Shown here: piece by piece, positions 3,388 through 60,582 of the stretch
Numbering within the stretch: the first letter of the stretch is position 1
Layout of the letters: each line of letters opens with the position of its first letter
Source: Stagnihabitans tardus
Lineage (GTDB): Bacteria; Pseudomonadota; Alphaproteobacteria; Rhodobacterales; Rhodobacteraceae
NCBI RefSeq assembly: GCF_009925085.1
Contig: NZ_JAABNR010000015.1
Coordinates: forward strand, 1 to 64,000
Direction of reading: 5' to 3'
DNA length: 64,000 bases
Notes under the pieces: model-generated
Databases searched by the model: none
Told to the model about the DNA's origin: nothing
Seen by the model: only the letters and a program-made list of their open reading frames with translations
Translations under genes and position numbers: made by a program

Positions 3388-3614
3388 GGGGAGGCGCTGC
3401 CTCCCCGGACCCCTCCGGGATATTTGTGAAAAGATGAAAGGGAGGGGGCGGTCGTGCGGGCCTTGCCTTGTCACGGCGGAAGGCGCCGCCCTCTTGCCGT
3501 CTTTTGCCGGATGATCGCTCGGACCAAAGACCCGGCTGCGCGCCCAAAGCGCCGGGTGCGGAGGGGCCGGGGGCTCCCCTGCTTTCATCTTTTCCCAAAT
3601 ATCCCCGCCGGAGG
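3388..3614. repeat. Two copies of the composite intergenic repeat, facing each other
   Basis: This stretch fills most of the 310-base gap between the oxidoreductase and the Rrf2 gene. The first copy (3388-3440, plus) has a perfect stem GGGGAGGC/GCCTCCCC with a GCT loop, then the linker and the tail GATATTTG...GATGAAAG. The second (3582-3614, minus) keeps the tail and a short GC linker but no clear stem. Each copy points in the direction of the gene that ends next to it. Between them I see no gene or regulatory site. Confidence 0.8.
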
Positions 3615-3687
3615 CCCTTCCCGAGCCGGTTGGCGCGCCAGCGCCAGAGGCGAGACAAAAGGAATGCGCCGCAGGTGCTCTATTGGA

Positions 3688-4137
3688 TCACCCGAGGATG
3701 CGGTCGCTGACCTCGGCCGATTTCTGGATATCGGCGAGCGTCAGGCTTTCGATCAGCACCAGGTAAGACCAGAAGACCTCGGCAAAGACCTTGCGGATCC
3801 GACAGGTCTCTTCGTCCGAGCAATCCTCGCAGCGCTGATAGGCGCGGCGCGAGAGGCATTGCAGCGGCGCGATCGGCCCGTCGATCATCCGCAAGAGCTC
3901 TGACACCGAGACCGCCTCGGGCGGCTTGATCATCTGGTAGCCGCCGGTCCGCCCCCGGGTCGAGGCGATATAGCCCGCGTTGCGGATCTCCAGCAGGATA
4001 TGTTCCAGGAAGCGCTTGGGCGCGCCTGACCGCTTGGCGATCTCCTCGATCGTCAGGGCCTCGGGTTGCGGCTTGGCCGCCTCATCCGCCAGGGTCAGGA
4101 GTGCCTTGAGCGCGTATTTCATCTTCTGCGTGATCAT
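3688..4137 (-). CDS. Rrf2-family transcriptional regulator with cysteine cluster
   Basis: A 149-residue DNA-binding protein. An N-terminal winged helix runs from about residue 5 to 75, including the recognition helix around APKRFLEHILLEIRNAG and the wing STRGRTGGY. Cysteines 94, 103, 106 and 112 sit where IscR, RirA and NsrR hold an Fe-S cluster. It is therefore probably a redox, iron or NO sensor; which one cannot be decided. It is divergent from the giant RTX gene, with a 253-base shared upstream region, so it could control that gene, but this is inference from position only. Confidence 0.88.
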   Translation of the reverse strand: MITQKMKYALKALLTLADEAAKPQPEALTIEEIAKRSGAPKRFLEHILLEIRNAGYIASTRGRTGGYQMIKPPEAVSVSELLRMIDGPIAPLQCLSRRAYQRCEDCSDEETCRIRKVFAEVFWSYLVLIESLTLADIQKSAEVSDRILG

Positions 4138-4390
4138 GGCTCAGACCTAGACGGATCGCGGGTGGGAATCAACGCGCAGCTTGCGGGCAAAGTGGGGCAA
4201 TTGTTGCGACATTCACGACAATGGCCGCGAAATCCGGCGATTTCTGGCAATTTGGGAAATAGTGCCACATTTGAGCCCCGAAATGACCTTTAGCCTTGCC
4301 CGAGGCGTCCAACTTGTGCCGCAGCCGACCCTTAGCCCTTGCTCCAATCGCCCCGATCCGCATCCGGGCCGCATTCGATTGGAGAACCCC
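4138..4390. promoter_or_regulatory. Divergent upstream region of the Rrf2 and RTX genes
   Basis: This region is more AT-rich than its surroundings. It contains a perfect small inverted repeat, GAAATC-CGGC-GATTTC, at 4229-4244, and a wider one, TGGCA with TGCCA 13 bases apart, at 4245-4267. Either could be an operator for the adjacent Rrf2 protein or another regulator. No convincing -35/-10 pair was found. The RTX ribosome-binding site GGAGA lies at 4381-4385. Confidence 0.35.
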
Positions 4391-7300
4391 ATGGCGACCT
4401 ACACCGGCACCTCAGGCAACGACACCTTTACCGGCACGACCTCTGCGGACAGCATGACGGGTGCCGATGGCAACGATATCCTTTATGGCGGCAGCGGCGT
4501 CGACAGCCTTTTCGGCGGCAATGGCAACGACACGCTTTCGGGCGGGGCGAACAACGACACGATCGACGGCGGTTCGGGCTTCGACTGGGTGGATTACTCG
4601 GCCTCGACCGCGGCGGTCAACGTCAGCCTGGTTTCGGGCGCGACCAACACGGGCGGCGATGCGGCGGGCGACACGATCACGGCCTTGACGGTCGAGGCGA
4701 TCCTGGGGTCGAACCTCAATGACACCCTGACCGGCGATGGCGTGGCCAACACGCTCAGCGGCGGGGCCGGCAACGACAGCATGAACGGCGGCGCGGGCAA
4801 TGACACGCTCAACGGCGGCGACGGCAACGACACGCTGATCGGCGCGGCCGGGGCGGATACGATCGACGGCGGGGTCGGGACGGCCGATGTGGTCGACTAC
4901 AGCGCCTCGACCCTTGCGGTCAACGTCAGCCTGGTGGCGGGCGCCACCAACACCGGCGGCGACGCGGCGGGCGATGTCCTGACCAATGTCGAGCGCATCA
5001 TCGGTTCGGGCAACAACGACACCTTGACGGGCGACAGCGGGGCCAACTCGCTTTCGGGCGGCAATGGCGACGACAGCCTGGTGGGCGGCCTCGGCGCCGA
5101 CACGATCGACGGCGGCGCGGGCAATGACACGGTGTCTTACGCGGCATCCTCCTCGGCGGTCGCGATCACCATCGGCGGAGCGGCGGGCACGGGCGGCGAT
5201 GCGGCGGGCGACCTGATCACCACGGTCGAGGTTCTGATCGGCTCGGGCCTGGGCGATACCCTGGGCGGCGATGGCAATGCCAACACGCTGATCGGCGGCG
5301 CGGGCAACGACAGCCTTTCGGGAGCGGCTGGCAATGACAGCCTGGATGCGGGCGACGGCAACGATACGCTGATCGGCGGCGCGGGCAACGACTCGCTTTC
5401 GGGCGGCGCGGGCACGGACCTCGCCGATTACAGCGCCTCGTCCCTGGGCGTGAACGTCACGGTCAACGGCAATTCCAACACCGGCGGCGACGCGGCGGGC
5501 GACGTCCTGACCGGGATCGAGAACCTCCTGGGATCGGCCCTGGCCGATACCTTGCGCGGCGATGCCGGGGCCAATGCGCTTTACGGCGGCCTTGCCAACG
5601 ACAGCCTGGTGGGGGGCGCGGGCGCCGACTACCTGGACGGCGGCGCGGGCAATGACACGGTCGATTACACAAGCGCCGGTTCGGCCGTCAACGTGACCCT
5701 GGGCGGAGTGTCTTCCAGCGGAGACGCCGCCGGAGACATCATCGTCAATGTCGAGACCCTGATCGGGTCGAACTTCAACGACACCTTGACCGGCGACACC
5801 AACAACAACGCGCTTTACGGCGGCTCGGGCAACGACATCCTGTCGGGCGGCGAGGGCGCGGACACGATCGACGGCGGAGCGGGCATCGACCAGGTGGACT
5901 ATTCCGGCTCCACGGTCGGGATCTCGATCACCGTCGGCGGCGGAGCGGGCGTGGGTGGCGATGCCACGGGCGACGTGCTGACCAATATCGAGGGTCTTTT
6001 CGGCTCGCAGCAGGCCGACACGCTGGGCGGGGATGGCGGCAACAACATCCTGGGCGGCAATGGCGGCGACGACAACCTGTCGGGCGGGTCGGGCAACGAC
6101 ACGCTGAACGGCGGGGCGGATGACGACCGGCTGATCGGTGGCGCGGGCAACGACGTGCTGAACGGCGGCGACGGGGTCGACACGGCCGATTACTCGGCCT
6201 CTTCGGTCGGGGTCACGGTCAACCTGGCCACGGGCGGCGGCACGGGCGGCGATGCGGCGGGCGACACGCTGACCGACATCGAGAATGTCATCGGCTCGGC
6301 CCTGGCCGATGCCCTGACCGGCAACAGCGCTGGCAACGTCCTGACCGGCGGAACCGGCAACGACTCGCTTTACGGCGGCGATGGCAACGACGTGCTGACG
6401 GGGGGCGCGGGCAATGACCTGCTGGACGGCGGCGCGGGCATCGACCTCATCGACTTCTCGGCCGGCACCAATGCGATCAACTACAACATCTCCACCGGCG
6501 TCCTGACGGGGGCGACCGAGGGCACCGACACGCTGATCTCGATCGAGGGCGTCGCGGCGACGGCCTTCAACGACACGCTGACCGGGTCCACGGGCGACAA
6601 CATCTTCCGCGGTGGCGCGGGGGCCGACCTGATCACCGGCAACGGCGGCACGGATACGATCGACTACACCGGATCGTCCGAGGCCGTCACGGTCGACCTG
6701 ATGAGCCAGACCGTCTCGGGCGGGGATGCGACGGGCGACACGATCGTCGGCATGACCCATGCCATCGGCTCTTCGGGCGCCGACAGCATCATCGGCAACG
6801 ACAGCAACAACCTTCTGATCGGCGGCGAGGGCGCGGACACGATCAACGGCGGCGACGGGTCGGACACGGTGTCCTATGCCGGGTCGGCCGATGGGGTGAA
6901 CATGTCGCTGACCGGCGGCTGGGGCATCGGCGGCGCGGCGGCAGGCGACAACCTGGTCAATGTCGAGAACCTGATCGGCTCGAGCCACAATGACACGCTG
7001 ACCGGCGACACGGCCAACAACCTCCTGCAAGGCGGCGACGGCAATGACGATCTGAACGGCCATGCGGGCAACGACACGCTTCTGGGCGGCAGGGGCGACG
7101 ACTTCTATACCGTGACCTCGGCCGACACCGTGATCACCGAAGCTGCGGGCGAGGGCACCGACACGGTCATCACCAATGTCGAGACGACCCTGGGCGACAA
7201 CTTCGAGAACCTGACCCTTTCGGGCCAGCTTGACCTGCGCGCCACCGGCAATGCGCTGGACAATGTCATCACCGGCAACTCGGGCCTCTCGGGCTTCGTG

Positions 7301-10300
7301 GGGATGCGCGGCTGGAACCTGCTGGAGGGCCTGGCGGGCAACGATACGCTGGTCGGCAACAATGGCGACGACACGCTGGACGGCGGCACGGGCAACGACA
7401 GCATGACCGGCGGCCTGGACAACGACACCTATATCGTCGACAGCCTGGATGACGTGGTCGTCGAGCTTTCGGGCCAGGGCATCGACACCGTGGTCTCTTC
7501 GCTGAGCTGGACGCTGACCTCGGCCTATGTCGAGAACCTGACCCTGACCGGCTCGAGCGACCTGACCGGCACCGGCAATGTCGGCGCCAATGGGCTGACC
7601 GGCAACACCGGGGCCAATGTCCTCTCGGGCGGCGATGGCAATGACACGCTGAACGGCGGAGAAGGCAATGACACGCTGATCGGCGGCGTGGGTGTCGACA
7701 GCATGATCGGCGGCGCCGGGGCGGATACGTTCTACGTCGACAACATCAGCGACAAGGTCAACGAGACGATCGGCAGCGGCGACGACGTGGTCTATGCCTC
7801 GGTGAGCCATACCCTGTCCTCTTATGTCGAAGACCTCTTCCTGACGGGCACGGCCGCCAATGGCACGGGCAATGCCTCCGACAACCTGATCACCGGCAAT
7901 GCCTCCAACAACCTGCTGACCGGCCTTGGCGGCAATGACACGCTGACGGGCGATGCGGGCAACGACACGCTGGACGGCGGCACGGGCAACGACAGCATGA
8001 CCGGCGGCACGGGCGACGACCGCTATGTCGTGGACAGCGCGGGCGACGTGGTGATCGAGGCCGATGGCCAGGGTTATGACCAGGTCACGGCGGCGGCGAA
8101 CTTCACCATCACCGGTTCGATCGAGAAGCTGATCCTCTCGGGCAGCTCGGGCTATACCGGCACCGGCAGCGCGCTGAACGATGTCATCGTCGGCAACACC
8201 GGGTCCAACCAGATCCTGGGCATGGCGGGCAACGACACGCTGGACGGCGGCTCGGGCTCTGACACGATCGACGGCGGTGCGGGCGATGACAGCATGACCG
8301 GCGGCACCGGCAATGACACCTTCATCATCGACAGCGCCAACGACATCATCGTCGAACTGGCCAATGGCGGCACCGACACGGTTGTCAGCTCCTTCGCCAT
8401 CTCGCTGGCCGCCAATGTCGAGAACCTGACCCTGACCGGGCTGGCTGACCTGAATGCCACGGGCAACGAGGTCAACAACATCCTGACCGGCAACGACGGC
8501 AAGAATGCGCTGTCGGGCGGGCTGGGTGCGGATACGCTGATCGGCGGCGCGGGCAACGACACGCTGGACGGCGGCGACGGCAACGACAGCCTTGCGGGCG
8601 GGGCGGGCGACGACATCTACTATGTCTCCTCCTCGGGCGACAAGATCACCGAGGCGCTGAATGCCGGCCTCGACACGGTCTATGCCGCGGTCACCTATTC
8701 GCTGGGCTCGGCCACCAATGTCGAGAACCTGACCCTGCTGGATGGCGGCACCAATGCCACCGGCTCTTCGGGCAACAACATCCTGACCGGCAATGGCACG
8801 GCCAATGTCCTTGACGGGGCGACGGGCAACGACACGCTGGTCGGCGCGGGCGGCGATGACACGCTGATCGGCGGCGCGGGCGTGGACCAGATGGCGGGCG
8901 GCGCGGGCAACGACACCTATGTGGTCGAAAGCCTGGGCGACACGGTGACCGAGGCCCTGAACGAGGGCGCCGACCTGGTGCAATCGAGCGTCACCTTCAC
9001 CCTGGGCGCCAATCTTGAAAACCTGACCCTGACCGGGACCTCCTCGGTCGCGGGAACGGGCAACGGCCTGTCCAACCTGATCCTGGGCAATGGCGGGGCG
9101 AACCTCTTGACCGGCGGCGACGGCAACGACACGCTGAACGGCGGCAATGGCGCGGATACGCTGGACGGCGGCACGGGCAACGACAGCCTCGTCGGCGGCA
9201 CGGGCAACGACACGTTCATCGTCGACTCCTCGGCCGATACCCTGGTCGAGGCAGGGGCGGGCGGCACCGATACGGTGATCTCGTCGCTGTCCTGGACCCT
9301 GGCCTCGAACTTCGAGCACCTGACGCTGACCGGGCTCGAGGGCCTGGCGGGGACCGGCAACTCCTTGAACAACATCCTTCTGGGCAATGACGGCGCCAAC
9401 GAGCTTTCGGGCCTCGCGGGCAACGACACGCTGACCGGAGGCGCGGGCAACGACACGCTGGACGGCGGGGCGGGCAACGACAGCCTGACGGGCGGTGCGG
9501 GCGACGACAGCTATATCGTCGACAGCGCGACCGACAAGGTCATCGAAGTCGCAGGCGGCGGCACCGACACGGTCAGCGCCTCGGTCACCCATACCCTGGC
9601 GGCCAATGTCGAGAACCTGACGCTGACGGGCGGCACCGCGATCGACGGGATCGGCAACACGCTGCACAACGTGCTGACCGGCAACTCGAGCGCCAACCTG
9701 CTGCAGGGCCTGGATGGGACGGACACGCTGGTGGGCGGCGCGGGCGACGACACGCTGGATGGCGGCAAGGGCGACGACAGCATGACGGGGGGCACCGGCA
9801 ACGACACCTTCGTCATCGACAGCCAGGCCGATGTGATGGTCGAAGGGGCCGCGGGCGGCACGGATACGGTGCAAAGCAGCATCAGCCTGACCTTGCAGGC
9901 CAATTTCGAAAACCTGGTCCTGACCGGCACCACCAGCCTCTCGGGGACGGGCAATGTGCTGAACAACCAGATCACGGGCAATGGCGGCTCCAACCAGCTG
10001 CAGGGCGCGGGCGGGGATGACACCCTGCAGGGCAATGGCGGCAACGACAACCTGACCGGCGGCATCGGCGCGGACCACTTCGTCTTCGCCTCGGCCTCGG
10101 GCAACGGCACGGATACGGTCACCGATTTCAACGCGCTGGATGGCGGGGCGGCGGAAGGCGACGTGCTGGAGTTCGTGGGCCTCTTGAAGGGCGCTTTCGC
10201 CTACCTGGGTTCGGGCACCTTCACCGGCGGGCTCGACAATTCCGAAGCACGGTTCTCGGGCGGCATGCTCTATGTCGACTGCGACGGCAACGGGGTGGCG

Positions 10301-10372
10301 GATATCTCGATCGTGATGTCGGGCATGACTTCGGCGGGCCAACTGACCCTGGCCGACTTCCTCTGGAGCTGA
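4391..10372 (+). CDS. Giant RTX calcium-binding repeat protein, likely type I secreted
   Basis: A 1,993-residue protein made almost wholly of glycine-aspartate nonapeptide repeats (GGxGxDxLx), which bind calcium and fold as beta-rolls outside the cell. Residues 1 to about 900 hold ten modules built on a DYSAS...GGDAAGD...IGS...DTLTGD segment plus RTX repeats. Residues about 900-1893 hold ten modules of another type (NDTYIVDS...ENLTLTG...TGN plus RTX). The last 100 residues resemble the serralysin C-terminal cap and end in LADFLWS, which suits an uncleaved type I secretion signal. There is no N-terminal signal and no enzymatic domain. GGAGA at 4381 fixes the start. No type I transporter genes lie in the window. 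Confidence 0.85.
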   Translation: MATYTGTSGNDTFTGTTSADSMTGADGNDILYGGSGVDSLFGGNGNDTLSGGANNDTIDGGSGFDWVDYSASTAAVNVSLVSGATNTGGDAAGDTITALTVEAILGSNLNDTLTGDGVANTLSGGAGNDSMNGGAGNDTLNGGDGNDTLIGAAGADTIDGGVGTADVVDYSASTLAVNVSLVAGATNTGGDAAGDVLTNVERIIGSGNNDTLTGDSGANSLSGGNGDDSLVGGLGADTIDGGAGNDTVSYAASSSAVAITIGGAAGTGGDAAGDLITTVEVLIGSGLGDTLGGDGNANTLIGGAGNDSLSGAAGNDSLDAGDGNDTLIGGAGNDSLSGGAGTDLADYSASSLGVNVTVNGNSNTGGDAAGDVLTGIENLLGSALADTLRGDAGANALYGGLANDSLVGGAGADYLDGGAGNDTVDYTSAGSAVNVTLGGVSSSGDAAGDIIVNVETLIGSNFNDTLTGDTNNNALYGGSGNDILSGGEGADTIDGGAGIDQVDYSGSTVGISITVGGGAGVGGDATGDVLTNIEGLFGSQQADTLGGDGGNNILGGNGGDDNLSGGSGNDTLNGGADDDRLIGGAGNDVLNGGDGVDTADYSASSVGVTVNLATGGGTGGDAAGDTLTDIENVIGSALADALTGNSAGNVLTGGTGNDSLYGGDGNDVLTGGAGNDLLDGGAGIDLIDFSAGTNAINYNISTGVLTGATEGTDTLISIEGVAATAFNDTLTGSTGDNIFRGGAGADLITGNGGTDTIDYTGSSEAVTVDLMSQTVSGGDATGDTIVGMTHAIGSSGADSIIGNDSNNLLIGGEGADTINGGDGSDTVSYAGSADGVNMSLTGGWGIGGAAAGDNLVNVENLIGSSHNDTLTGDTANNLLQGGDGNDDLNGHAGNDTLLGGRGDDFYTVTSADTVITEAAGEGTDTVITNVETTLGDNFENLTLSGQLDLRATGNALDNVITGNSGLSGFVGMRGWNLLEGLAGNDTLVGNNGDDTLDGGTGNDSMTGGLDNDTYIVDSLDDVVVELSGQGIDTVVSSLSWTLTSAYVENLTLTGSSDLTGTGNVGANGLTGNTGANVLSGGDGNDTLNGGEGNDTLIGGVGVDSMIGGAGADTFYVDNISDKVNETIGSGDDVVYASVSHTLSSYVEDLFLTGTAANGTGNASDNLITGNASNNLLTGLGGNDTLTGDAGNDTLDGGTGNDSMTGGTGDDRYVVDSAGDVVIEADGQGYDQVTAAANFTITGSIEKLILSGSSGYTGTGSALNDVIVGNTGSNQILGMAGNDTLDGGSGSDTIDGGAGDDSMTGGTGNDTFIIDSANDIIVELANGGTDTVVSSFAISLAANVENLTLTGLADLNATGNEVNNILTGNDGKNALSGGLGADTLIGGAGNDTLDGGDGNDSLAGGAGDDIYYVSSSGDKITEALNAGLDTVYAAVTYSLGSATNVENLTLLDGGTNATGSSGNNILTGNGTANVLDGATGNDTLVGAGGDDTLIGGAGVDQMAGGAGNDTYVVESLGDTVTEALNEGADLVQSSVTFTLGANLENLTLTGTSSVAGTGNGLSNLILGNGGANLLTGGDGNDTLNGGNGADTLDGGTGNDSLVGGTGNDTFIVDSSADTLVEAGAGGTDTVISSLSWTLASNFEHLTLTGLEGLAGTGNSLNNILLGNDGANELSGLAGNDTLTGGAGNDTLDGGAGNDSLTGGAGDDSYIVDSATDKVIEVAGGGTDTVSASVTHTLAANVENLTLTGGTAIDGIGNTLHNVLTGNSSANLLQGLDGTDTLVGGAGDDTLDGGKGDDSMTGGTGNDTFVIDSQADVMVEGAAGGTDTVQSSISLTLQANFENLVLTGTTSLSGTGNVLNNQITGNGGSNQLQGAGGDDTLQGNGGNDNLTGGIGADHFVFASASGNGTDTVTDFNALDGGAAEGDVLEFVGLLKGAFAYLGSGTFTGGLDNSEARFSGGMLYVDCDGNGVADISIVMSGMTSAGQLTLADFLWS

Positions 10373-10479: not shown

Positions 10480-10585
10480 CTCAGGCGGCCCTTGGCGGGG
10501 ATGTTCGGGAACAGGTGCAAAGGGCGCGGGTTGCAGCGCCCGAGCTTCACGACAAAGGCGCGCCGGAGGCCCGCGCCCCTTTCGA

Positions 10586-10716
10586 CTTCAGACTTGCCCA
10601 AATATGCGCCTTGAGTCCGGGCTTTCAATTTGGCCCAAATACTCAAACCGCCCCCCCTTTCATACTTGCCCAAATATCCCGGGGGGGGCGCGGCAGCGCG
10701 GGGGGCAGCGCCCCCC
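10586..10716 (-). repeat. Three consecutive composite-repeat copies after rbsK
   Basis: Reading on the minus strand away from the ribokinase stop: a full copy at 10657-10716 (arms GGGGGGC/GCCCCCC with an AGC loop, tail GATATTTG...ATGAAAG), a tail-only copy at 10622-10644, and a degenerate one at 10586-10610. Together with the two hairpins nearer the RTX gene, they account for most of the 344-base gap from 10373 to 10716. The hairpin abuts the ribokinase stop codon directly. Confidence 0.75.
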
Positions 10717-12129: not shown

Positions 12130-12182
12130 CGGGGGTTTTGCACCCCCGGACCCCCGCAGGATATTTGAGCCAAATTGAAAGG
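12130..12182 (+). repeat. Composite repeat copy between SGNH hydrolase and mutarotase genes
   Basis: Hairpin GGGGG-TTTTGCA-CCCCC at 12131-12147, linker GGACCCCCG, then the tail of the GATATTTG type (here ...GAGCCAAATTGAAAG). It sits inside a minus-strand operon but is oriented on the plus strand, opposite to both flanking genes. Confidence 0.75.
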
Positions 12183-26950: not shown

Positions 26951-26960
26951 CAAGGATCAA

Positions 26961-34324: not shown

Positions 34325-35407
<1,083 letters not shown>

Positions 35408-36961: not shown

Positions 36962-36967
36962 GGGATT

Positions 36968-36996: not shown

Positions 36997-37009
36997 GCGC
37001 CCCCTGCCC

Positions 37010-37066: not shown

Positions 37067-37076
37067 GCGTTCCGCC

Positions 37077-37706: not shown

Positions 37707-37772
37707 ATCCCACGCCCCCGCGTTGTCACAGGCGCAGCTTGGCAAAGGATTGCGGCAGGAACGCGGCGGGAT

Positions 37773-40228: not shown

Positions 40229-40280
40229 GTCACCCTCGGCGGTTTTCTCTCACCTAAGACGGGCGCGGGCGCGATGCAAG

Positions 40281-40694: not shown

Positions 40695-40828
40695 CCTGGC
40701 CTCCGCTTATATTCCGCGCTTGATATATATCACGGAACCCGGCGCACAAGGGCTCCGTAATCGTTACAGGAAACCTTTTGCATCCCGCGGGGGGGCCGTT
40801 TAGGGTGCCGCCCCAGAGGAGACCCCAG

Positions 40829-43186
40829 ATGCACCCCTATCAGAACCCCAACGCCCCCATCGAGACCCGAGTCGAGGACCTTCTGGCCCGGATGACCCCG
40901 GAAGAGAAATTCGCCCAGATGCATGCCATGTGGCTGATCCTGGACGAGGAGGGCAACCACAAGGTGCGCGGCGATGCCTTCATCAAGGGGACCGAGGCCG
41001 AGACCCTGCGGCAAAGGCTGCTCCTGGGGCTTGGCCAGATCACGCGGCCCTTGGGCACGGCGGCGGTCGAGCCGCGCAAGGGGGTGCGCGCGCTGAACCG
41101 GCTGCAAAAGCTGATGATGGAGGAGACGCGGCTGGGCATCCCGGTGCTCTCCCACGAGGAATGCCTGTCGGGGCTGATGGCGCGGGATGCGACGCTGTTT
41201 CCCTCGTCGCTGGGCTATGGCGCGACCTGGAATCCGGGGCTGATCCAAAGGGTGGGCGCGGCCATCGGCGACGAGATGGCTTCGGTCGGCGGTCACCAGG
41301 GCCTGGCCCCGGTGCTGGATGTGGCGCGGGATGCGCGCTGGGGCCGGACCGAAGAGACCTTCGGCGAAGACCCCTACCTCGTGGGCGAGATGGCCTTGGC
41401 CTATGTGCGGGGGCTGCAGGGCCCCGACCGCAGGCGGCTGGCGACCTTGAAGCATTACGTCGGCCACAGCTATTCTGAAGGCGCGCGCAACCATGCCCCG
41501 GTTCACCTCGGCTGGCGCGAGCTGAACGACGACTTCATGCTGCCCTTCGAGATGGCGGTGAAGCTGGGCCAGGCCTCCTCGGTGATGCCCGCCTATCATG
41601 ACATCGACAACGAGCCGGTCCATGGCTCCCGGCATCTCTTGACCGATGTGCTGCGCGGCGAATGGGGGTTCGAGGGCATCGTGGTGGCCGATTACATCGG
41701 GGTCACGCTTCTGCATGCCCATCACGGCGTGACCCCGGATGCGGCGGCATCGGCGGCCCTGTCCTTCCGCGCGGGGCTGGACGTGGAATTGCCCGCCGAC
41801 GAATGCGCGACCATGCTGGCCCAGGCCCTGGACCGTGGCCTTATCACCATGGAGGAGGTGGACGAGACTGTCCGTCGGTCCCTGCGCGAGAAGTTCCGCA
41901 TTGGTCTCTTCGAGAAGCCTTACGCCGATGACGGCGCCGTGGCGCTGCGGACGCCTCAGGCGCTGGAGCTGGCGCGAGAGGTGGCCGAGCAATCGGTGAC
42001 CATCCTCGACAACCGGGGCGCCCTGCCGATTGCGCCTGCCACCAAGCTGGCCGTGATCGGGCCTTGCGCCGATGACCCGCTGGCTTTGCTGGGCGATTAT
42101 TCCTTCCCCGTCCACCTGATCAACATGGACGCCAAGGAGGATGCCTCCTCCGTCGTCACCCTCCTGCAAGGCTTCCGCGCCCTCTGCCCCGATGTCACCT
42201 ATGCCAAGGGCTGCCATATCCTGGAGACGCGCAGCGCAGGCGCCCCGGTCTTCCCCGGCGACGTGGCCGATCCGACCAAACTTCACCAGGTCTCGCCGCT
42301 TTCGACCAAGCTGGACCTGATCCCCGAAGCCGTCGAGGCCGCGCGCAAGGCCGAACTGGCGATTGTCTGCGTCGGCGACCTCTCCGGCATCTTCCAGACC
42401 GGCACGGTGGGCGAGGGGTCAGATGCCGAGACCCTGGACCTCCCCGGCGTCCAGCAAGAGCTCCTGCAAGCCGTGGTCGAAACCGGCACGCCCACGGTGG
42501 TCATCGTGACCTCGGGCCGCCCCTACAACCTCGGCGGCCTCGAATCCCGCCTGGCCGCCCAGGTCTATGCCTTCTTCCCCGGCGAGCAGGGCGGCCATGC
42601 CGTGGCCCGCGTCCTGACCGGCGCGGCAGAGCCCTCGGGCCGCCTGACGCTGTCGGTGCCGCGTTCGGCTGGCGCCTCGCCCTATTTCTACAACCACAAG
42701 TTCAAGGCCTCGGGCACCCCGGTCGCCCGGCATTTCGGGTCGGATTACCCCTTCGGCCATGGGCTCTCCTACACGACCTTCGCCTGGGAAGGGCTGGAGG
42801 TCTCTCCCCAGGTCACCCTGGATGGCACGGTGACCGCCAGCCTGACGGTGCGCAACACCGGCGCCCGCAAGGGGGTCGAGGTGGTGCAGCTTTACATCCG
42901 CGACCGGGTGGCAAGCCTGGTGCGCCCGGTCAAGGAGCTGAAAGCCTTCGCAAGGCTGGACCTGGCCCCGGGCGAGGCAAAGCGGGTGACGCTGGAAGTC
43001 CCGGTCGACATGCTGAACTTCACCGGCTACCAGGGCCATCGCATCGTGGAGCCCGGCTGGTTCGACGTGATGCTCGGCGCCTCTTCCGCCGATATCAAGC
43101 TGAAGGGCGAGGTCGAGGTGACGGGCCCCTCCCCCCGCGCGCTGCCGAAAGACTGGCGCATGCAGTCCCGCGCGACCGTGGTCTGA
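40829..43186 (+). CDS. Glycoside hydrolase family 3 (beta-glucosidase/beta-xylosidase type)
   Basis: A 785-residue three-domain GH3 enzyme. The barrel (residues ~10-350) contains LAPVLDVARDARWGRTEETFGEDPYL and KHYVGHS, with the nucleophile Asp in GFEGIVVADYIGV. The alpha/beta sandwich holds GDLSGIFQTGTVGEGSD near the acid/base region. The fibronectin III-like domain at the end includes YPFGHGLSYT. There is no signal peptide, so it should act in the cytoplasm on imported oligosaccharides; the ABC locus at 12.8-18.3 kb is a conceivable source, without direct evidence. The start follows AGAGGAG. Confidence 0.92.
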   Translation: MHPYQNPNAPIETRVEDLLARMTPEEKFAQMHAMWLILDEEGNHKVRGDAFIKGTEAETLRQRLLLGLGQITRPLGTAAVEPRKGVRALNRLQKLMMEETRLGIPVLSHEECLSGLMARDATLFPSSLGYGATWNPGLIQRVGAAIGDEMASVGGHQGLAPVLDVARDARWGRTEETFGEDPYLVGEMALAYVRGLQGPDRRRLATLKHYVGHSYSEGARNHAPVHLGWRELNDDFMLPFEMAVKLGQASSVMPAYHDIDNEPVHGSRHLLTDVLRGEWGFEGIVVADYIGVTLLHAHHGVTPDAAASAALSFRAGLDVELPADECATMLAQALDRGLITMEEVDETVRRSLREKFRIGLFEKPYADDGAVALRTPQALELAREVAEQSVTILDNRGALPIAPATKLAVIGPCADDPLALLGDYSFPVHLINMDAKEDASSVVTLLQGFRALCPDVTYAKGCHILETRSAGAPVFPGDVADPTKLHQVSPLSTKLDLIPEAVEAARKAELAIVCVGDLSGIFQTGTVGEGSDAETLDLPGVQQELLQAVVETGTPTVVIVTSGRPYNLGGLESRLAAQVYAFFPGEQGGHAVARVLTGAAEPSGRLTLSVPRSAGASPYFYNHKFKASGTPVARHFGSDYPFGHGLSYTTFAWEGLEVSPQVTLDGTVTASLTVRNTGARKGVEVVQLYIRDRVASLVRPVKELKAFARLDLAPGEAKRVTLEVPVDMLNFTGYQGHRIVEPGWFDVMLGASSADIKLKGEVEVTGPSPRALPKDWRMQSRATVV

Positions 43187-43200
43187 ACCCCGCGGCAGCA

Positions 43201-43235
43201 GCCTTTGGCGGGGGCTCGATGCCCCGGCCAAAGGC
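43201..43235. terminator. Hairpin between convergent GH3 and alaX genes
   Basis: GCCTTTGGC (43201-43209) pairs with GCCAAAGGC (43227-43235), extended inward by GGGG/CCCC pairs. It lies 15 bases after the glycosidase stop. Confidence 0.65.
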
Positions 43236-43299
43236 CCCCCCGCCGCCGCGCGGCCCGAGGATTTCGCAAGACATCCGAGGGCGCCCGCCGAAAAAGCCC

Positions 43300-44016
43300 T
43301 CAGGCCAGTTCCAGCGTCACCCGGCGGTTCTGGCGGCCCTTCTTCTCGACCTTGGTCAAGGCCACCCGCCCGATCTCCGAGGTCCGCGCCACATGGGTCC
43401 CGCCGCAGGGCTGCAGGTCGACCTGGGTCTCCCCCGCCCCGATCCGCACCAGCCGCACCCGCCCCTGGCCCACCGGAGGCCGCACCGACATGGTCTTCAC
43501 CAGCCCCGGATTGGCCGCAAGCTCCTCATCGGTGATCCAGGTCTCGGTCACCGCCAGGTCCTGGTCGATCAGCCGGTTCAGCCGGTCCTCGATCGCGGCC
43601 AGGTCCTCGGGCGGCTCGGGCATGTCGAAATCGAGCCGCCCGCGCTCGGCGCCGATCTGGCCCCCGGTCACCGGCAGAGGGATCACCACCGACAGAAGAT
43701 GCAGCGCGGTATGGACGCGCATGTGACGGAAGCGGCGGTCCCAGTCCAGCACCTGGCGGACCTCCGTGCCAATCGGCGGCAAGGGCGGCGTGATGTCGCC
43801 CGGCACCAGCGCCACCCCGCCCTCGTGCTTGACCGCCGTGGCAATGGCCATGCGGCTTCGCCCCCATTCCAGCCAGCCGCTGTCCCCCGGCTGCCCCCCG
43901 CCCGTCGGGTAAAAGACCGAGGCCCGAAGCACGATGCCGCCCTCGGGCGTATGCGCCACCACGGCCGAGACGGCTTCGGTCAGATAGGCATCGTCACGGA
44001 ACAGAAGCTCGGTCAT
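43300..44016 (-). CDS. Alanyl-tRNA editing protein, AlaX family
   Basis: A 238-residue trans-editing protein that hydrolyses mischarged Ser- or Gly-tRNA(Ala). The zinc-binding motifs HTALH and CGGTH, at typical spacing, match the AlaRS editing domain. The N-terminal glycine-rich barrel (FYPTGGGQPGDSG) is intact, so this is the AlaX type with the substrate loop. Its ATG overlaps the stop of the large MscS gene upstream (ATGA), an unexpected pairing of tRNA proofreading with a membrane channel. Confidence 0.9.
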   Translation of the reverse strand: MTELLFRDDAYLTEAVSAVVAHTPEGGIVLRASVFYPTGGGQPGDSGWLEWGRSRMAIATAVKHEGGVALVPGDITPPLPPIGTEVRQVLDWDRRFRHMRVHTALHLLSVVIPLPVTGGQIGAERGRLDFDMPEPPEDLAAIEDRLNRLIDQDLAVTETWITDEELAANPGLVKTMSVRPPVGQGRVRLVRIGAGETQVDLQPCGGTHVARTSEIGRVALTKVEKKGRQNRRVTLELA

Positions 44017-46640
44017 GGCTTGGCCTTTGGCAGGGGCGCGCCGAGGATGGCCTCGACGGCGGCGATATGGGCGGCCTCTTCGGCCTTCTTCTCGGCCTCG
44101 GCGGCGGCGTCATCGGCCTTCTTGGCCAGGTAATCGCGGTGAGCGGCCGAAAAGGCCACCCTTTCGGCGGCAAAGCGCGCGGCGACCTGGTGGTTGATCT
44201 CGGTCCGGACCTCGTGCTGGAAATTCACGTCCCGCAGGATCACCCTTATCTCGAAATTCAGCGCATCGCCCGCAAAGCCGGTGAGCACCACGGCGGGCGG
44301 CGGCGACAAGAGGACCAGCGGCTGGGCCTCGGCGATCTCGCGCAAGAGCTTCGAGACCCTGCGGCTGTCCTCGGTCAAGGGCACCGAGACCGGAACGATG
44401 AGCCGCCCGGTCAGCGAGAACCGCGTCCAGTTGGTCACCTGCCGCGTGATCAGGTCGCTGTTGGGCACGATCACATCCGACCGGTCGAAGGTCTGGATCC
44501 GGGTCGAGCGCACCGAGATCGCCTTGACCACGCCCTGGACCGAGCCCACCTCGATCCAGTCGCCCTCGCTGACGGGCCGCTCGATCAGAAGGATGATGCC
44601 CGAGACGAAATTCGACACGATGGTCTGCAGGCCGAAACCGATGCCGACCGAGAGGGCACCGGCGACGATGGCCAGGCCCGAGAGGTCGATCCCCGTGGCA
44701 TTGATCGCCACCAGGGCCGAGACCAGGATCCCGGCATAGCCCAGCCCCGAGACGATGGCATTCTGCCCGCCCTGGTCCAAAGAGGTGCGCGGCAGGACGG
44801 TGTTCTTCAAGGCCCCCTGCAAGAGGCGCGTCAGCGTCAGGCCGATGGCGAAGAGCACGGCAAAGAACAGGAAGTCGGTGGGCGAAATCTGCGTCTCGCC
44901 CAGCCGGAAGCCCTCTTGAAACCGTGTCCAAAGCTCGGTCAGGTCGGCGACCCGCGCCCCCCAGATCAGCGCGACCAGGGGCAGCGTGGCAAGCGCCAGG
45001 CCGAAGGAGATCAGCACCGGGACCAGGGCGTCCTGGTCCTCTCCGCGCGTGGCCAGGGCATAGATATCGCCCACCAGCCCCTGGGCCAGATAGAGAAGCG
45101 CCGCCAGGGCCAGCGTCATGGCCGAGGGGAAGACCAGAGCCGAGGCGGCCGAGATATAGCCCGCCGCCGCCAGAAGCGGCGCGATGGCGCCAAAGAGGAT
45201 CACGCCGCGCGCCAAGAGCCGGACAAGACGGGTGCGATAGACCGCCCGGCCCTCATCGCTGCCCGGATCGGCGCGGTTCAACAGCTGGCCAAGGCGCACC
45301 AGCACGACCGCGCCGGCCAGGATGATCGGCAGGTTCAAGACCGAAGTCGCGGCATCGGTCACGTCGATCTCGGCCATGGCGGCGCGGCGCAGCATGGCCA
45401 CCGCGATCAGCACGCCGAAGAGCGAGGTCAGGAAGCGCCCCTCGGCCCGGCGCTCGGGCGGCAGGGGCAGAAGCGTCGGGCCCTCGTCGGCGGGGAAGAC
45501 CCTGCCGCCCAGCCAGGCCGCGGCCATGATGGCAAAGCCGGTCTGCCCCAGGACATCGGCGATATGGCCCCCGATCGGGCCCAGCATGGTCGTCAGCCGC
45601 AGCGCCTCGGCCAGGGCGAGGCAGGCGAGGACGGGGACGAGGACCGGGCCCAGCGAGGCCAGGGTCTCCCAGATGCGGCGACCGCGCGCCGAGGAGGGCC
45701 CGGGGAGATAGGAGAGAAGCCGCCGCGTGATCGGTCCGCCGCGCCAGAGCCCGGCCAGGGCGAAAAGCAGCAGCGGCAGGATCAGGGGCAGGTTGTCGAC
45801 CAGCCGCTTTTGCGCGACCCCATCGGTGACGCGCCGCGCCGTTTCGTCCCAAAGCGCCAGGGCGGTGTCGGAGAGGGCCTTGGCCGCATCGGTCCAGTTC
45901 GGCGGGTAAAGCGGGTTGGGCCAGAGTTTCAAAAGCTCGGAAGCCTGGCGTTCGCGCAGAAGCCGGTCGATCTCGCGGATCAGGCCATCGGCGCGGCGAT
46001 AGGCCTCTTCGGCGGCGATACCAGGGGCCTGAAGGCGGCCCATCTGCGCGGTCAGTTCGGCGCGGCGGGTGGCGATCTCGGGCTCTTCGGCGGCGTCACC
46101 CTCGGGCGGCGGACCGAGGGCGTCGATCTGGTCCTTGAGCGTCGCGATGCGGGTGGAATTGGCCGATTGCGCGCCCGAAAGCTGCTCGCGCCAGCGGGTC
46201 AGCTCGGTGCGCAGGTTTTCCAGCCCCTGGTTGGAGAGGCTCTGGTTGGTCAGCGCGCTTTCGGCGCGAACCGCCATGCGCTCCCACCCCTGGTAGTCAA
46301 GCGCCCCGCCGGAGGCGCCGCCCGAGGCCACGGGTTTTGCCGTCGGCGCCCCGCCGCCCGACTGGGTCGCGGCAGGCTTGGCCCCGCCCTGGGGGGCAAA
46401 GCCGCCCGACTGCGGCGCCTCGGCAGGGGCATCCGGCTTCATCGGGATGATGGCGCCGGAACTGTCGGCCTGGACCGTCAGGGGCGCCTGGCCCGGCGCC
46501 GCCCCGCCCGAGGCCTGGGACAGGGCCGGAAGCGGCAGGGCCAGCGCCGTCGCAAGCGCCAGGGCCCCCATGACGGCGCGGCGGAGGGAGGCCCCCCCCG
46601 CCCCAAGGACCAGACCCGCGATCCGGCCCGCCTGGCTCAT
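44013..46640 (-). CDS. Large MscS-type mechanosensitive channel with DUF3772 periplasmic domain
   Basis: An 875-residue membrane protein. It has a signal peptide (residues ~20-43), an Ala/Pro/Gly linker, a periplasmic coiled region typical of DUF3772 (about 95-260, LENLRTELTRWREQLSGAQSA), some ten transmembrane helices, and then the MscS pore and beta domain. NAIVSGLGYAGILVSALVAINATG and GFGLQTIVSNFVSGIILLIERP mark the MscS core, and EGDWIEVGSVQGVVKAISVRSTRI the beta domain. It should release solutes on hypo-osmotic shock. The start overlaps the cysK stop by ATGA. Confidence 0.9.
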   Translation of the reverse strand: MSQAGRIAGLVLGAGGASLRRAVMGALALATALALPLPALSQASGGAAPGQAPLTVQADSSGAIIPMKPDAPAEAPQSGGFAPQGGAKPAATQSGGGAPTAKPVASGGASGGALDYQGWERMAVRAESALTNQSLSNQGLENLRTELTRWREQLSGAQSANSTRIATLKDQIDALGPPPEGDAAEEPEIATRRAELTAQMGRLQAPGIAAEEAYRRADGLIREIDRLLRERQASELLKLWPNPLYPPNWTDAAKALSDTALALWDETARRVTDGVAQKRLVDNLPLILPLLLFALAGLWRGGPITRRLLSYLPGPSSARGRRIWETLASLGPVLVPVLACLALAEALRLTTMLGPIGGHIADVLGQTGFAIMAAAWLGGRVFPADEGPTLLPLPPERRAEGRFLTSLFGVLIAVAMLRRAAMAEIDVTDAATSVLNLPIILAGAVVLVRLGQLLNRADPGSDEGRAVYRTRLVRLLARGVILFGAIAPLLAAAGYISAASALVFPSAMTLALAALLYLAQGLVGDIYALATRGEDQDALVPVLISFGLALATLPLVALIWGARVADLTELWTRFQEGFRLGETQISPTDFLFFAVLFAIGLTLTRLLQGALKNTVLPRTSLDQGGQNAIVSGLGYAGILVSALVAINATGIDLSGLAIVAGALSVGIGFGLQTIVSNFVSGIILLIERPVSEGDWIEVGSVQGVVKAISVRSTRIQTFDRSDVIVPNSDLITRQVTNWTRFSLTGRLIVPVSVPLTEDSRRVSKLLREIAEAQPLVLLSPPPAVVLTGFAGDALNFEIRVILRDVNFQHEVRTEINHQVAARFAAERVAFSAAHRDYLAKKADDAAAEAEKKAEEAAHIAAVEAILGAPLPKAKP

Positions 46641-47671: not shown

Positions 47672-47908
47672 GGGATACCTCTTCCGCTTTGCCCCTGTGT
47701 AAGGGGGCGTTGACCGAAACTCAAGCAAGCCCGGCCATTTCCCGCGCGTGACCCTTGCCAAATTGAGCGCCTGCCGGCGCAGGAGCTTTATCTCGCCTCT
47801 GGGCCTGCGGCCCAACCGGCTTGGGGCGGCGCGTCCCAAGGGGCCGCGCCGGAAAGCCTGACCGGCCTGGCCCCATGGCGCCCCTGGACGCGGCCAAGGC
47901 CTTTCCCC

Positions 47909-47963
47909 CTTCATCTTTTCCCAAATATCCCGGGGGGAGCCGAAGGCGGGGGGCAGCGCCCCC
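47909..47963 (-). repeat. Composite repeat downstream of the cytidine deaminase gene
   Basis: Minus copy: stem GGGGGC-GCT-GCCCCC (47949-47963), GC linker, tail GATATTTG...GATGAAG. It lies in the 309-base gap 47672-47980; in the rest of that gap (about 47720-47900) I see no gene or site. Confidence 0.75.
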
Positions 47964-51692: not shown

Positions 51693-53077
51693 ATCAGGTC
51701 TCCGATCAGAAAGTCAGCCGCCCGGTCGAGGCGGATATGGGCGGGCCCCTCGCCGGGGCGGCGGGTCATGCGGGCGGGCAGGAAGTCCATCATCCGGTAT
51801 TCGGCCCCCATCCAGCCCTCGGCCCCCTGGCGGGCGGGGGCGAGGATGCGGGACGGGTCCTCGGGCAGTTCCCCCGCATAGGCCGCGACCAGCCGCCCAT
51901 CCGAAAGCCGCCCCTTGACGGCGGGCAGGACGGCGCCTGCGCGGGCGATCTCCTCCTCGACCGTGGCGCGGTAAGAGGCCAGGGCCAGCGCCTGGGTCTC
52001 GGCCCCCGCGAAATCGGCACGCGCCCTTGCATCGGCCAAAAGCGCCTCGGTGATCGCGGTCATCCTTGCGTGCTGGCCATGGTGCAGGTGATCGGCCTTG
52101 GTGGCGGCGAAAAGGATCTTCTCCACCCGCTTGCCGCCCAGGATCAGGTCGAGCCAGCCCCGCCGCCCGGGGCGGAAGGCGCCGAGGACTTCCGCCAGCG
52201 TCCGGCGCAGGTCCTCGACCGCCTGCGGCCCCCGGTCGAGCGCGCCGAGAAGGTCGATCAGCACGAGCTGCCGGTCGATCCTGGCGAAATGGGTCTGGAA
52301 GAAGGGCCGGATCACCTTGGCCTGATAGGCCTGGAACCGCGCCTCCATCGCCGCGTAAAGCGAGCCCCGCCCTGCCATGGCAGGCCTGGGCAAGGGCGCA
52401 AAGGTCAGGACCGGAGAGCCCGCAAGGTCGCCCGGCAACAAAAACCGCCCCGGTGTGCAATCCGACCAGCCCGCCCGCCGCGCGGCCTGGAGATAGGCGG
52501 TGAAGCGCGCCGCCAGCTCCATGGCCTTGGGCTCGTCAAGGTCCAGGGCCCCATCCTCGGCCCGGGCCAGCGCCAGGTAATCCCGCGCCTCGGCCCGCGT
52601 GGCGATGCGGGAAAGCGTGGCCTCGGCCCAGTCCTCATAGCTCTTGTCCAGAAGCGAGAGGTCCAGAAGCCATTCCCCCGGGTAATCCACGATATCCAGA
52701 TGCAGCGTCCGGGGCCCCAGGACCGAGGCCATCCCCTCCGCCCTGTAGCGGAACGAAAGCCGCAGCTCCGACACCGCCCGCGTGCTCTCCGGCCAATGCG
52801 GCGCATCCCCGGTCAGGGCGGCGAGGTGGTCCTCATAGGCAAAGCGCGGCAGGGTCATGTCGGGCTGCGGCTGCAAGAGGACAGAGTCGATCCGCCCCGA
52901 AGGCGCGAACTGCACCATCCGCCCGCGTTCGAGAAGATTGGCCACCAGAGAGGTGATGAAGACCGTCTTGCCCGCCCGCGACAGCCCCGTGACCCCGAGC
53001 CGCACGACCGGATCGGGCAGCGCCAGCCCCCCCAAGCCGCGCAGGAACCCCTCCGCCAGATCGCCGATGCCGCCCAA
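51689..53077 (-). CDS. ycjX: YcjX-family P-loop protein
   Basis: A 462-residue protein of the YcjX/DUF463 family with an N-terminal P-loop, GLSRAGKTVFITSLV, near residue 25. LHLDIVDYPGEWLLDL acts as a Walker B-like block, and FAATKADHLHHGQH is a TKxD-like guanine specificity motif. The family is predicted to hydrolyse GTP. The start is probably TTG at 53077 with AGGGCAGGA upstream; this gives the family length (about 465), whereas the longer open frame would read through three repeat copies. It is followed by GNAT and ycjF in overlapping order. Confidence 0.87.
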   Translation of the reverse strand: MGGIGDLAEGFLRGLGGLALPDPVVRLGVTGLSRAGKTVFITSLVANLLERGRMVQFAPSGRIDSVLLQPQPDMTLPRFAYEDHLAALTGDAPHWPESTRAVSELRLSFRYRAEGMASVLGPRTLHLDIVDYPGEWLLDLSLLDKSYEDWAEATLSRIATRAEARDYLALARAEDGALDLDEPKAMELAARFTAYLQAARRAGWSDCTPGRFLLPGDLAGSPVLTFAPLPRPAMAGRGSLYAAMEARFQAYQAKVIRPFFQTHFARIDRQLVLIDLLGALDRGPQAVEDLRRTLAEVLGAFRPGRRGWLDLILGGKRVEKILFAATKADHLHHGQHARMTAITEALLADARARADFAGAETQALALASYRATVEEEIARAGAVLPAVKGRLSDGRLVAAYAGELPEDPSRILAPARQGAEGWMGAEYRMMDFLPARMTRRPGEGPAHIRLDRAADFLIGDLM

Positions 53078-53172
53078 TTCCTGCCCTTTTCGCCTTTCCC
53101 CTGAACATAGGCAGGAAAACCGCCCCGCAACAGGCCAAATCCATGGGAAAATTCGGCAAACCGCAGCAAGAG

Positions 53173-53534
53173 CTGGAGGGAGCCGCGGGCCCCCTCCAGA
53201 CCTTCCCCGGGAGTATTTGGGCCAAATTGAAAGGAACGAAGGGGAGTCGCGGGGGGCTATGGGCGCTGAAGCGGCGTGCCATTTGAGCGGGCAAGAAAGC
53301 TGGAGGGACCCGCGGGGCCCCTCCAGACCTCCCCCGGGATATTTGCGCAAGTATGAAAGACCACGGGGAGAAAATCCGTTGGTGGCAGGCTGTGCCCAGG
53401 GCCACTGGACTTTCCGCACCCGGGAGTATTTGGGCCAGTTGAAAGCATGAAGCGCGCCCCTGTCCACCGCGCCCTCTTTCCCTTTCACCTTGGCTCAAAT
53501 ATCCCACGGGGGTGCGGGGGTGTGAAACCCCCGC
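53173..53534. repeat. Four composite-repeat copies in the ycjX-truA divergent region
   Basis: Plus copies at 53173-53233 (stem CTGGAGGG/CCCTCCAG), 53300-53359 (same stem) and 53418-53446 (tail only), and a minus copy at 53482-53534 (stem GCGGGGGT/ACCCCCGC). The tails show all main variants: GGGCCAAATTGAAAG, GCGCAAGTATGAAAG, GGGCCAGTTGAAAG and GAGCCAAGGTGAAAG. They fill nearly all of the 495-base gap 53078-53572; no promoter stands out. Confidence 0.82.
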
Positions 53535-53572
53535 TCTGCCCGCCGCCGCAAAAGCGCCCCTGGAAGGAAAAG

Positions 53573-54337
53573 ATGCCCCGCTTCGCCCTGCTCATCGAAT
53601 ATGACGGCTCGCCCTTTGCGGGCTGGCAGCGGCAGGTCAACGGGCCCTCGGTCCAGGGTGCGATCGAGGCGGCCCTGGCCAGGCTGGAGCCGGGCGAGCA
53701 TCTCCTGGCCGCAGCCGGGCGCACCGATACCGGGGTTCATGGCACGGGCCAGGTCGCCCATATCGACCTCTCCCGCGATTGGGACCCGTTCCGGCTGCTC
53801 GAGGCGCTGAATGCCCATCTGCGCCCCGCCCCGGTGGCGATCCGGGCGGTGGCCCAGGTGGCGGACGACTTCCACGCGCGGTTTTCCGCGTTGGAGCGGC
53901 GGTATCTCTACCGCATCCTCAACCGCCGCGCGCCGCCCGTGCTGGAGCGCGGCCGGGTCTGGCATGTGAAATCCCGGCTCGACCTCGCTGCCATGGAGGA
54001 GGCGGCAACGCATCTGGTGGGCAACCACGACTTCACCACCTTCCGCTCGACCTATTGCCAGGCCAATTCCCCGGTCAAGACCCTGGACGAAATCAGCTTT
54101 TCCACCATCGGAGAGGAAATCCACGTCCGGCTTCGCGCGCGGTCCTTCCTGCACAACCAGGTGCGGTCGATCATGGGCTCGCTCGTGCAGGTCGGCCACG
54201 CGACCTGGAGCCCCGATGACATGGCCAGAGCCCTGGCCGCGCGGGACCGCCGCGCCTGCGGGCCGGTGGCGCCGCCCCAGGGGCTCTGCTTGACAGGCGT
54301 GTCCTATCCGGATGATCCTTTCGCTGATCTTGGTTAA
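53573..54337 (+). CDS. truA: tRNA pseudouridine38-40 synthase
   Basis: A 254-residue enzyme that isomerises U38-U40 in tRNA anticodon arms. The catalytic Asp is in [17 protein letters not shown]. Other family blocks are [14 protein letters not shown] at the start, [20 protein letters not shown], and [19 protein letters not shown] near the C terminus. Start after GGAAGGAAAAG. It is divergent from ycjX behind a dense cluster of composite repeats. Confidence 0.96.
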
Positions 54338-60465: not shown

Positions 60466-60484
60466 TCTTGGCGCAGTGAAGGGA

Positions 60485-60520
60485 GGGCCGGGGGTGCGAA
60501 CCTCCGGCCCTTTGCTTTTG
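60485..60520 (+). terminator. Terminator after the MFS gene
   Basis: GGGCCGG and CCGGCCC arms followed by TTTGCTTTT, 19 bases after the stop. Its stem matches the hairpin after ilvC. Confidence 0.75.
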
Positions 60521-60529
60521 CGGATCGCC

Positions 60530-60582
60530 CGGGGGTTTCACACCCCCGGACCCCCGTGGGATATTTGTGAAAAGATGAATGA
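60530..60582 (+). repeat. Composite repeat between the MFS gene and ackA
   Basis: Stem GGGGG-TTTCACA-CCCCC, linker GGACCCCCGTGG, tail GATATTTG...GATGAATG; nearly identical to the copy at 31712-31763, almost 29 kb away. Confidence 0.85.

Follow-up and report, generated by a model that had tools for sequence, protein, structure and literature searches.

How does a repeated hairpin keep its two arms complementary while their sequences differ from copy to copy, and what is the segment between that hairpin and its conserved tail? The question is raised by a 64,000-nucleotide stretch of Stagnihabitans tardus (contig NZ_JAABNR010000015.1, positions 1 to 64,000; hereafter the window), which belongs to a genome of 4.59 Mb in 114 contigs. 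An earlier inspection of its sequence (the original prediction) listed 18 places occupied by an intergenic unit made of a GC hairpin, a linker, and a tail. The linker is the mirror of the 3' arm of the hairpin and would serve as a third strand, which goes beyond a hairpin followed by a linker. We consider the element to be probably a dispersed extragenic DNA repeat, carried by Rhodobacteraceae and built mainly around an intrastrand triple helix; it may serve as a structural site resembling REP and BoxC sequences.

Architecture of the Element

The element reads, in order, as a purine arm, a loop, a pyrimidine arm, a short turn or second hairpin, a third strand, a few bases complementary to the loop, and a 20-bp tail, TATTTG-N8-TGAAAG. 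The length of the second pyrimidine tract goes with that of the purine arm, a short G-rich end stands between this tract and the tail, and where the arm has an inner A the tract usually has T at the mirrored place, as in GGAGAGGG / CCCTCTCC / CCTCTCCC. Such mirroring is what the third-strand rule of an intrastrand triplex asks for. The stems described for the intrastrand triplex motif, classes I-IV (PMC4666352), namely a purine stem, a pyrimidine stem, and a matching third stem, are all present in the sequence.

Two further features surround the third strand. In 213 parsed copies, a set limited to elements with a perfect third strand and used for both turns and loop pairing, the turn is GGA in 65 and AGA in 29. 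Longer turns form hairpins of their own: of the 39 distinct turns that measure 8 nt or more, 34 can form at least 3 bp (29% when shuffled) and 29 at least 4 bp (9% when shuffled). Among unique pairs whose loop has 6 nt or more, 48 of 78 show three loop bases complementary to those that come next after the third strand; 5000 shuffles, which also count related copies as independent, gave 22.0 on average and 34 at most. The excess is kept when each distinct loop contributes one end (36/58; shuffled mean 16.5, maximum 29) and when GTG ends are left out (26/47; shuffled mean 13.7, maximum 23). Examples of such pairs are CAC with GTG, CGC with GCG, TGC with GCA, and TCC with GGA, and in some copies, read by eye, a TTTCACA loop is complementary to TGTGAAA in the tail.

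The tail has an 8-nt core in 145 of the 149 tails found in 1.227 Mb of the S. tardus genome. It stands directly after 83 of 163 perfect triplex motifs with turns of up to 30 nt and within 150 nt of 107, as compared with 122 of 2040 random spacer positions. Seven of the 163 motifs lie inside called genes, and in 29 cases two motifs follow each other with fewer than 40 nt between them. Tails also occur as facing pairs and in arrays (cut-off 75 bp) with a spacing of 35 to 66 bp and differing spacers. Two or three triplex units stand in a row at C1:371732 and C4:152716 of the S. tardus genome, those at C4:152716 lying upstream of one tail. A different module, ending in GCCTCCGGCGGGGA and not a triplex, precedes the tail at 3582-3601 and, by reading, at roughly 20 other copies in the genome; in the few stretches from other genera that were read, a GCCTCCGGCGGGGA-ending module or a bare GAG before the tail is common.

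Covariation of Three Strands

Tail-anchored copies yield 45 unique asymmetric arms, which distinguish a mirror from a direct repeat. The linker is a full mirror match to 18 of them and a full direct-repeat match to 1, while 2000 permutations of the linkers, which count related copies as independent, average 5.2 matches and never exceed 11. On a finer letter score the mirror fits better in 23 arms, ties in 14, and fits worse in 8. The same rule appears when the tail is ignored: of 234 asymmetric purine hairpins in the 1.227 Mb, 30 are followed by a full mirror strand and 2 by the direct-repeat control. The corresponding counts are 9 and 0 (n=76) in Rhodobacter sp. KR11, 1 and 0 (n=46) in 79 named loci, 3 and 0 (n=12) in genome G077, and 1 and 0 (n=17) in genome G121. 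Perfect motifs with turns of 1-6 nt number 131 in the 1.227 Mb and 0 in one order-1 Markov control, a lenient control, as real spacers are skewed in composition.

Three other descriptions fall away. A hairpin alone is rejected, as the linker predicts the sequence and length of the arms, and a direct repeat of the 3' arm is rejected by 2/234 against 30/234 for the mirror. The idea that the third strand has its antiparallel partner at some other place within 80 nt is likewise rejected (6/67, with 8.8 expected). The claim that arms differ yet stay complementary is borne out, and the complementarity extends to the third strand. Selection on a folded structure gains stronger support than had been claimed, since the linker, in the manner of a third strand, varies together with the arms. 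The triplex rule is in our judgement very probably real.

The base opposite the inner A, summed over three sets (n=66), is T in 50, A in 9, G in 5, and C in 2, so that 59 of 66 are T or A; in G077 and G121 together it is T in 5 and any other base in none. Both A.A-T and T.A-T triplets are permitted in this class of triplex (PMC4666352). A DNA triplex of the purine motif, when read on the opposite strand, allows both T and A, and plain mutation of T would favour C; the bias leans towards this motif without proving it. That the rule acts at the level of DNA appears likely.

Orthologous Sites in a Sister Species

Rhodobacter sp. KR11 is the closest relative in a search of the genus (93% identity for one protein) and is treated here as the sister species. 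Across 67 orthologous spacers the raw counts are 14 occupied in both species, 3 in S. tardus only, 4 in KR11 only, and 46 in neither; reading the alignments by eye changes these to 16, 2, 2, and 47, so that 16 of 20 occupied gaps are common to both. Seventeen orthologous pairs have both tails above a threshold, and in 10 of them the triplex is parsed in both species. The arms have changed at 6 of these 10 sites (C4 172958, 200434, and 232487; window 34116, 36850, and 60465), and the third strand follows at each. The weakest of the six is window 36850, where the longer hairpin of KR11 contains a mismatch. Of the four sites whose arms are unchanged, one shows a third-strand mismatch in S. tardus (53077), the sole one over all ten.

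At several orthologous sites the arms and the core word have been replaced together, as gene conversion would do. This pattern favours an explanation in which the covariation reflects no more than common descent and the swapping of a handful of ready-made subfamilies, the triplex being under no selection today. The arms, however, are many and distinct, of 4 to 8 bases, each with its own fitting third strand, and changes made in place keep the rules: a turn passes from GGCCC/GGGCC to GGCGC/GCGCC, and at one site the third strand changes from T to A in KR11. We also know of no copying process that produces mirror repeats. Descent and exchange as the whole explanation therefore strike us as quite doubtful.

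Over the 17 pairs TATTTG and TGAAAG each have an identity of 0.93, as compared with 0.71 for the two bases that follow TATTTG and 0.50 for the six-base word; the threshold used to pick tails itself favours the two halves. The word at C4 181546 differs between the species and the remaining element is the same. At the site orthologous to window 3377-3687 the KR11 element contains a tandem duplication of 15 nt, CGGAGATATTTGGGC. Deeper orthologues of one gene (synteny unchecked) have a tail downstream in 3 of 92 and upstream in 0 of 94; with so few, turnover looks high beyond the sister species.

Placement and Orientation

With genes called by a purpose-written simple codon-score caller, the element lies only between genes in the window, as originally stated, and mostly so at larger scale: of the 149 tails in the 1.227 Mb, 145 are intergenic and 3 fall inside called genes, the last one being at an edge. 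The intergenic tails comprise 71 in tandem, 63 in convergent, and 11 in divergent gaps. Occupied gaps of at least 80 nt number 39/93 among convergent, 49/272 among tandem, and 5/145 among divergent ones. Copies were also said to point mostly out of the 3' end of a gene. In the window 11 of 18 do so by reading, one of which adjoins a gene with a weak call. Seven of the 11 lie between convergent genes and are uninformative, since in a convergent gap any orientation points out of one gene. Tandem gaps hold 36 sense and 35 antisense copies in S. tardus, and the ratios of 7:9 in KR11, 1:5 in G077, and 1:3 in G121 bring the sum of the four genomes to 45:52. Outward pointing is not borne out as a general rule.

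These data bear on a role in the transcript, where RNA of the hairpin, linker, and tail at mRNA ends would act as a terminator, a 3' processing site, or a stability element. The frequent occupation of convergent gaps, the strong GC hairpins, and the 43 of 63 convergent-gap copies that point away from the nearer gene are what this role would give. Orientation that is random with respect to co-directional genes speaks against it, in S. tardus as in the other three genomes. The hairpin has no T-run directly after it, and the 12 terminator-like sites found in 26001-46000 include no element hairpin, although one of them, 35690-35674 (-), ends against the tail of an element. Purine-motif triplexes are moreover said not to form in RNA (PMC4666352). 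An intrinsic terminator was rejected for the lack of a T-run after the hairpin in 26001-46000 and of a sense bias to the upstream gene, and 3' processing or termination, or any RNA tied to the transcript, is disfavoured and in our view quite improbable.

Copy Number, Spread, and Tail Words

The tail pattern TATTTGNNNNAANNTGAA, which misses some words, has 186 matches in the whole genome and 0 for the reversed control. It occurs in 16/16 genomes of the genus with 2 to 186 copies each and in 88/198 genomes of the family, some with only one or two matches that may be chance. In a set of 190 genomes of the class, those outside the family give 0 to 4 matches, comparable to the reversed control. An exact variant of the triplex module is present in 51/198 family genomes (control 0). 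By blastn the element is found in 18 of 72,556 plasmid records, of which 16 are from Paracoccus; four Paracoccus copies that were read keep the triplex and TATTTG, with the rest of the tail changed. On plasmid pS3A of Thalassococcus sp. S3 (L201) the photosynthesis genes bchY and bchZ have between them a triplex module whose tail is degenerate.

The six-base words of the tail core form a small set that differs between sister species. The leading words are CCAAAT, AAAAGA, and CCAAGT in S. tardus and AAAAGA, TCAGTA, and TCAATG in the KR11 stretches; elsewhere they are CCAAGA (G121), GCAAGA (G041), and ACAAGA (G124).

The original prediction also named a non-autonomous mobile unit. Such a MITE- or REPIN-like element would be copied in the form of folded single-stranded DNA by a transposase whose gene lies elsewhere, and the need of that enzyme would keep the structure. 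A copy number that ranges so widely within the genus, the facing pairs and tandem arrays, the presence on plasmids of the family, and one whole array that is absent at its KR11 orthologue all fit mobility. The sharing of 16 of 20 occupied gaps with the sister species does not, and the Y1/REP transposase (PF01797) is absent from this genome, 5 of 14 control genomes being positive; a REP/RAYT identity was rejected on that absence. Mobility of this kind is, on balance, unlikely. CRISPR-like spacers were also considered and rejected: nine array spacers compared with the S. tardus and KR11 stretches matched their own place and had short matches, the best others being in KR11, where one spacer matched in part at two places (20 nt exact with E 3e-5, and 22 nt with E 4e-4).

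A Proposed Structural Site

Under the intrastrand triplex reading, in a single-stranded or negatively supercoiled region the purine-rich strand, carrying the third strand, turn, purine arm, loop, and pyrimidine arm, would turn back on itself two times, and bases adjoining the third strand would pair with the hairpin loop. The triplex would be of the purine motif and formed in DNA. The 20-bp tail would act as a bipartite site for a sequence-specific factor, presumably a protein. Copies would persist mostly in gene-end spacers, and exchange between copies, possibly ectopic gene conversion that swaps arms and core words, would keep them alike within a species. The most likely role, if a weakly supported one, is that of a REP/BoxC-like structural site at gene ends, either a supercoiling or replication-transcription boundary or the substrate of an enzyme that acts on a folded single strand; the benefit may fall to the host or to the element.

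Several observations weigh against this reading. In 4 of the 17 orthologous pairs the triplex is parsed in one species only, and in 3 in neither. Eight of the 45 asymmetric arms fit a direct repeat better, six of them being of an A-run type (AAAGGGG with AAACCCC). The large excess of T over A opposite the inner A (50 to 9, and 5 to 0) is also allowed by the pyrimidine motif. No tail pattern lies within 150 nt of 56 of the 163 triplex motifs, although a few of 25 inspected have a degenerate tail, and 4 of the 18 window tails have no triplex. The convergent-gap copies lean away from the nearer gene, and KR11 hardly avoids divergent gaps (6/55 occupied, against 14/107 tandem and 8/36 convergent). 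The triplex of Escherichia coli, stable as an oligonucleotide, gave no protection in dimethyl sulfate footprinting in vivo (PMC4666352).

In a more specific form, the element may be the site of a Rhodobacteraceae system that acts on folded single-stranded DNA, recognises the triplex and its loop-paired end, and uses the tail as its reaction site. The fixed TATTTG and TGAAAG halves would then flank an 8-bp core with a species-specific, fast-changing word. We regard this as a long shot, which if true would account for the tandem tail arrays with unique spacers, the word swaps at unchanged sites, and the species-wide dialects. Whether triplexes of this kind matter in cells is testable in the culturable Rhodobacter sp. 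KR11 or Paracoccus, and the dialect-bearing tail points to a putative reader factor.

Sites in the Window

All 18 places listed in the original prediction carry the tail motif (Table 1). The recurring unit of hairpin, linker, and tail holds for 14, where hairpin and linker directly precede the tail, but not for four bare tails (3582, 10585, 10622, and 53426). The two strands of the window together contain 18 TATTTG words, 17 of which, by reading, belong to element tails; the remaining window tail starts with TATTTA.

Table 1. Copies of the element in the window, with the third-strand match to the hairpin.
Positions	Strand	Feature	Tail	Third strand and remarks
3388-3440	+	Triplex module GGGGAGG-CGCTG-CCTCCCC-GGA-CCCCTCC	3421-3440	7/7 mirror, asymmetric
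3582-3601	-	Tail without triplex, GCCTCCGGCGGGGA module before it	3582-3601	
10585-10604	-	Tail without triplex, third in tandem array	10585-10604	End TGAAGT
10622-10641	-	Tail without triplex, second in array	10622-10641	
10657-10716	-	Triplex module (G6, 11-nt turn), array head	10657-10676	6/6
12131-12181	+	Triplex module, loop TTTTGCA complementary to GCA after third strand	12162-12181	5/5
26960-27019	+	Triplex module, hairpin turn CGGCCCTGCGGGCCTC	27000-27019	5/5, A allowed opposite A; KR11 orthologue turn CGGCGCTTCGCGCCTC
27038-27094	-	Triplex module GGGAGGG, facing the 26960-27019 element	27038-27057 (TATTTA)	7/7
31713-31763	+	Triplex module GGGGG-TTTCACA-CCCCC-GGA-CCCCC-GTGG	31744-31763	5/5
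34221-34273	-	Triplex module	34221-34240	5/5; KR11 orthologue GGGGAGG/CCTCCCC/CCCCTCC
35617-35672	+	Triplex module AAAGGGG-AGCACGCT-CCCCTTT-GG-AAACCCC	35653-35672	7/7, A allowed opposite A
37010-37064	-	Triplex module GGAGGG/CCCTCC/CCTCCC	37010-37029	6/6, asymmetric
47908-47963	-	Triplex module, 10-nt hairpin turn	47908-47927	5/5
53175-53233	+	Triplex module GGAGGG	53214-53233	5/6, one mismatch
53302-53359	+	Triplex module GGAGGG/CCCTCC/CCTCCC	53340-53359	6/6
53426-53444	+	Tail without triplex	53426-53444	7-nt core in place of 8 nt
53482-53532	-	Triplex module G5	53482-53501	5/5
60531-60581	+	Triplex module G5	60562-60581	5/5; KR11 orthologue GGGAGGG/CCCTCCC/CCCTCCC

At the gathering score no Rfam family falls on the element, the sole match in the window being a SAM_alpha (SAM-II) riboswitch at 36895-36970 (-), which adjoins the element at 37010-37064 and lies in front of the gene called at 35672-36850. 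Although copies are scarce in divergent gaps, the divergent spacer at 53077-53573 (about 500 nt) has four tails; KR11 has one tail there. One of the four promoter-like matches in 26001-46000 (1.8 in shuffles), at 31719-31747 (+), lies inside an element and combines TTCACA of the loop with GATATT of the tail start. A single open frame of about 2000 codons spans 4391-10372 (+), with another long frame on the opposite strand.

Comparison with Known Systems

DNA uptake sequences (DUS/USS) have genus-specific dialects and facing pairs near gene ends, and the present repeat shares these traits. It was nevertheless rejected as an uptake sequence, as only 3 of 149 tails lie in called genes and many relatives have few or no pattern matches; its 20-bp tail is a further difference. 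A MITE would have terminal inverted repeats, a target-site duplication, and a transposase parent; facing pairs occur here, and no parent element or target-site duplication was noticed, neither having been searched for systematically. REP, BIME, and REPIN sequences are short extragenic hairpins of high copy number with paired units and gene-end placement, all of which recur in this repeat. Unlike REP and REPIN systems, this genome has no Y1 transposase, and the flank seen beside the triplex is TATTTG-N8-TGAAAG, where REP and REPIN palindromes have a GTAG or CGTC tag (tags as given in the title of PMC3733652).

In kind the repeat is akin to BoxC/PIT/TM_ECO, an enterobacterial intrastrand triplex repeat that forms a triplex in vitro and is intergenic, strand-neutral, and found in inverted pairs (PMC4666352). 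As described in that source, the two have in common an intergenic position, GC richness, the lack of strand bias, a 3-nt turn, A.A-T and T.A-T triplets, some inverted pairs of two types, and a copy number that varies among relatives. The view that no named family fits also stands: no description was found in the literature searched, and the ITxF lists, which lay outside that search, may hold such loci unnamed. The main text of PMC4666352 contains none of six Rhodobacterales or alphaproteobacterial terms, and term searches of the available text of PMC3733652 and PMC12306157 returned no Rhodobacter, Paracoccus, Roseo-, or triplex. The structural type, an intrastrand triplex repeat, is thus already known, and the repeat itself, its tail, and the three-way matching changes appear undescribed within that literature.

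TM_ECO belongs to class II (pyrimidine, purine, third strand), with 9-nt arms and a highly conserved sequence (PMC4666352), and its consensus CCCTCNCCC-N3-6-GGGNGAGGG-N3-GGGNGAGGG has 0 matches in the 1.227 Mb. The Rhodobacteraceae repeat has the opposite strand order, with 131 class I/III motifs against 12 of class II, and it appears to add the 20-bp tail. In contrast to TM_ECO, it has arms of varying length and sequence, with loop pairing and hairpin turns as further additions. The constant sequence of the enterobacterial repeat, the best studied of the bacterial intrastrand triplex repeats, gives no evidence of which pairings matter. With variable arms, evolution itself tests the third strand, through matched changes in all three strands, both between dispersed copies and where orthologous sites differ.

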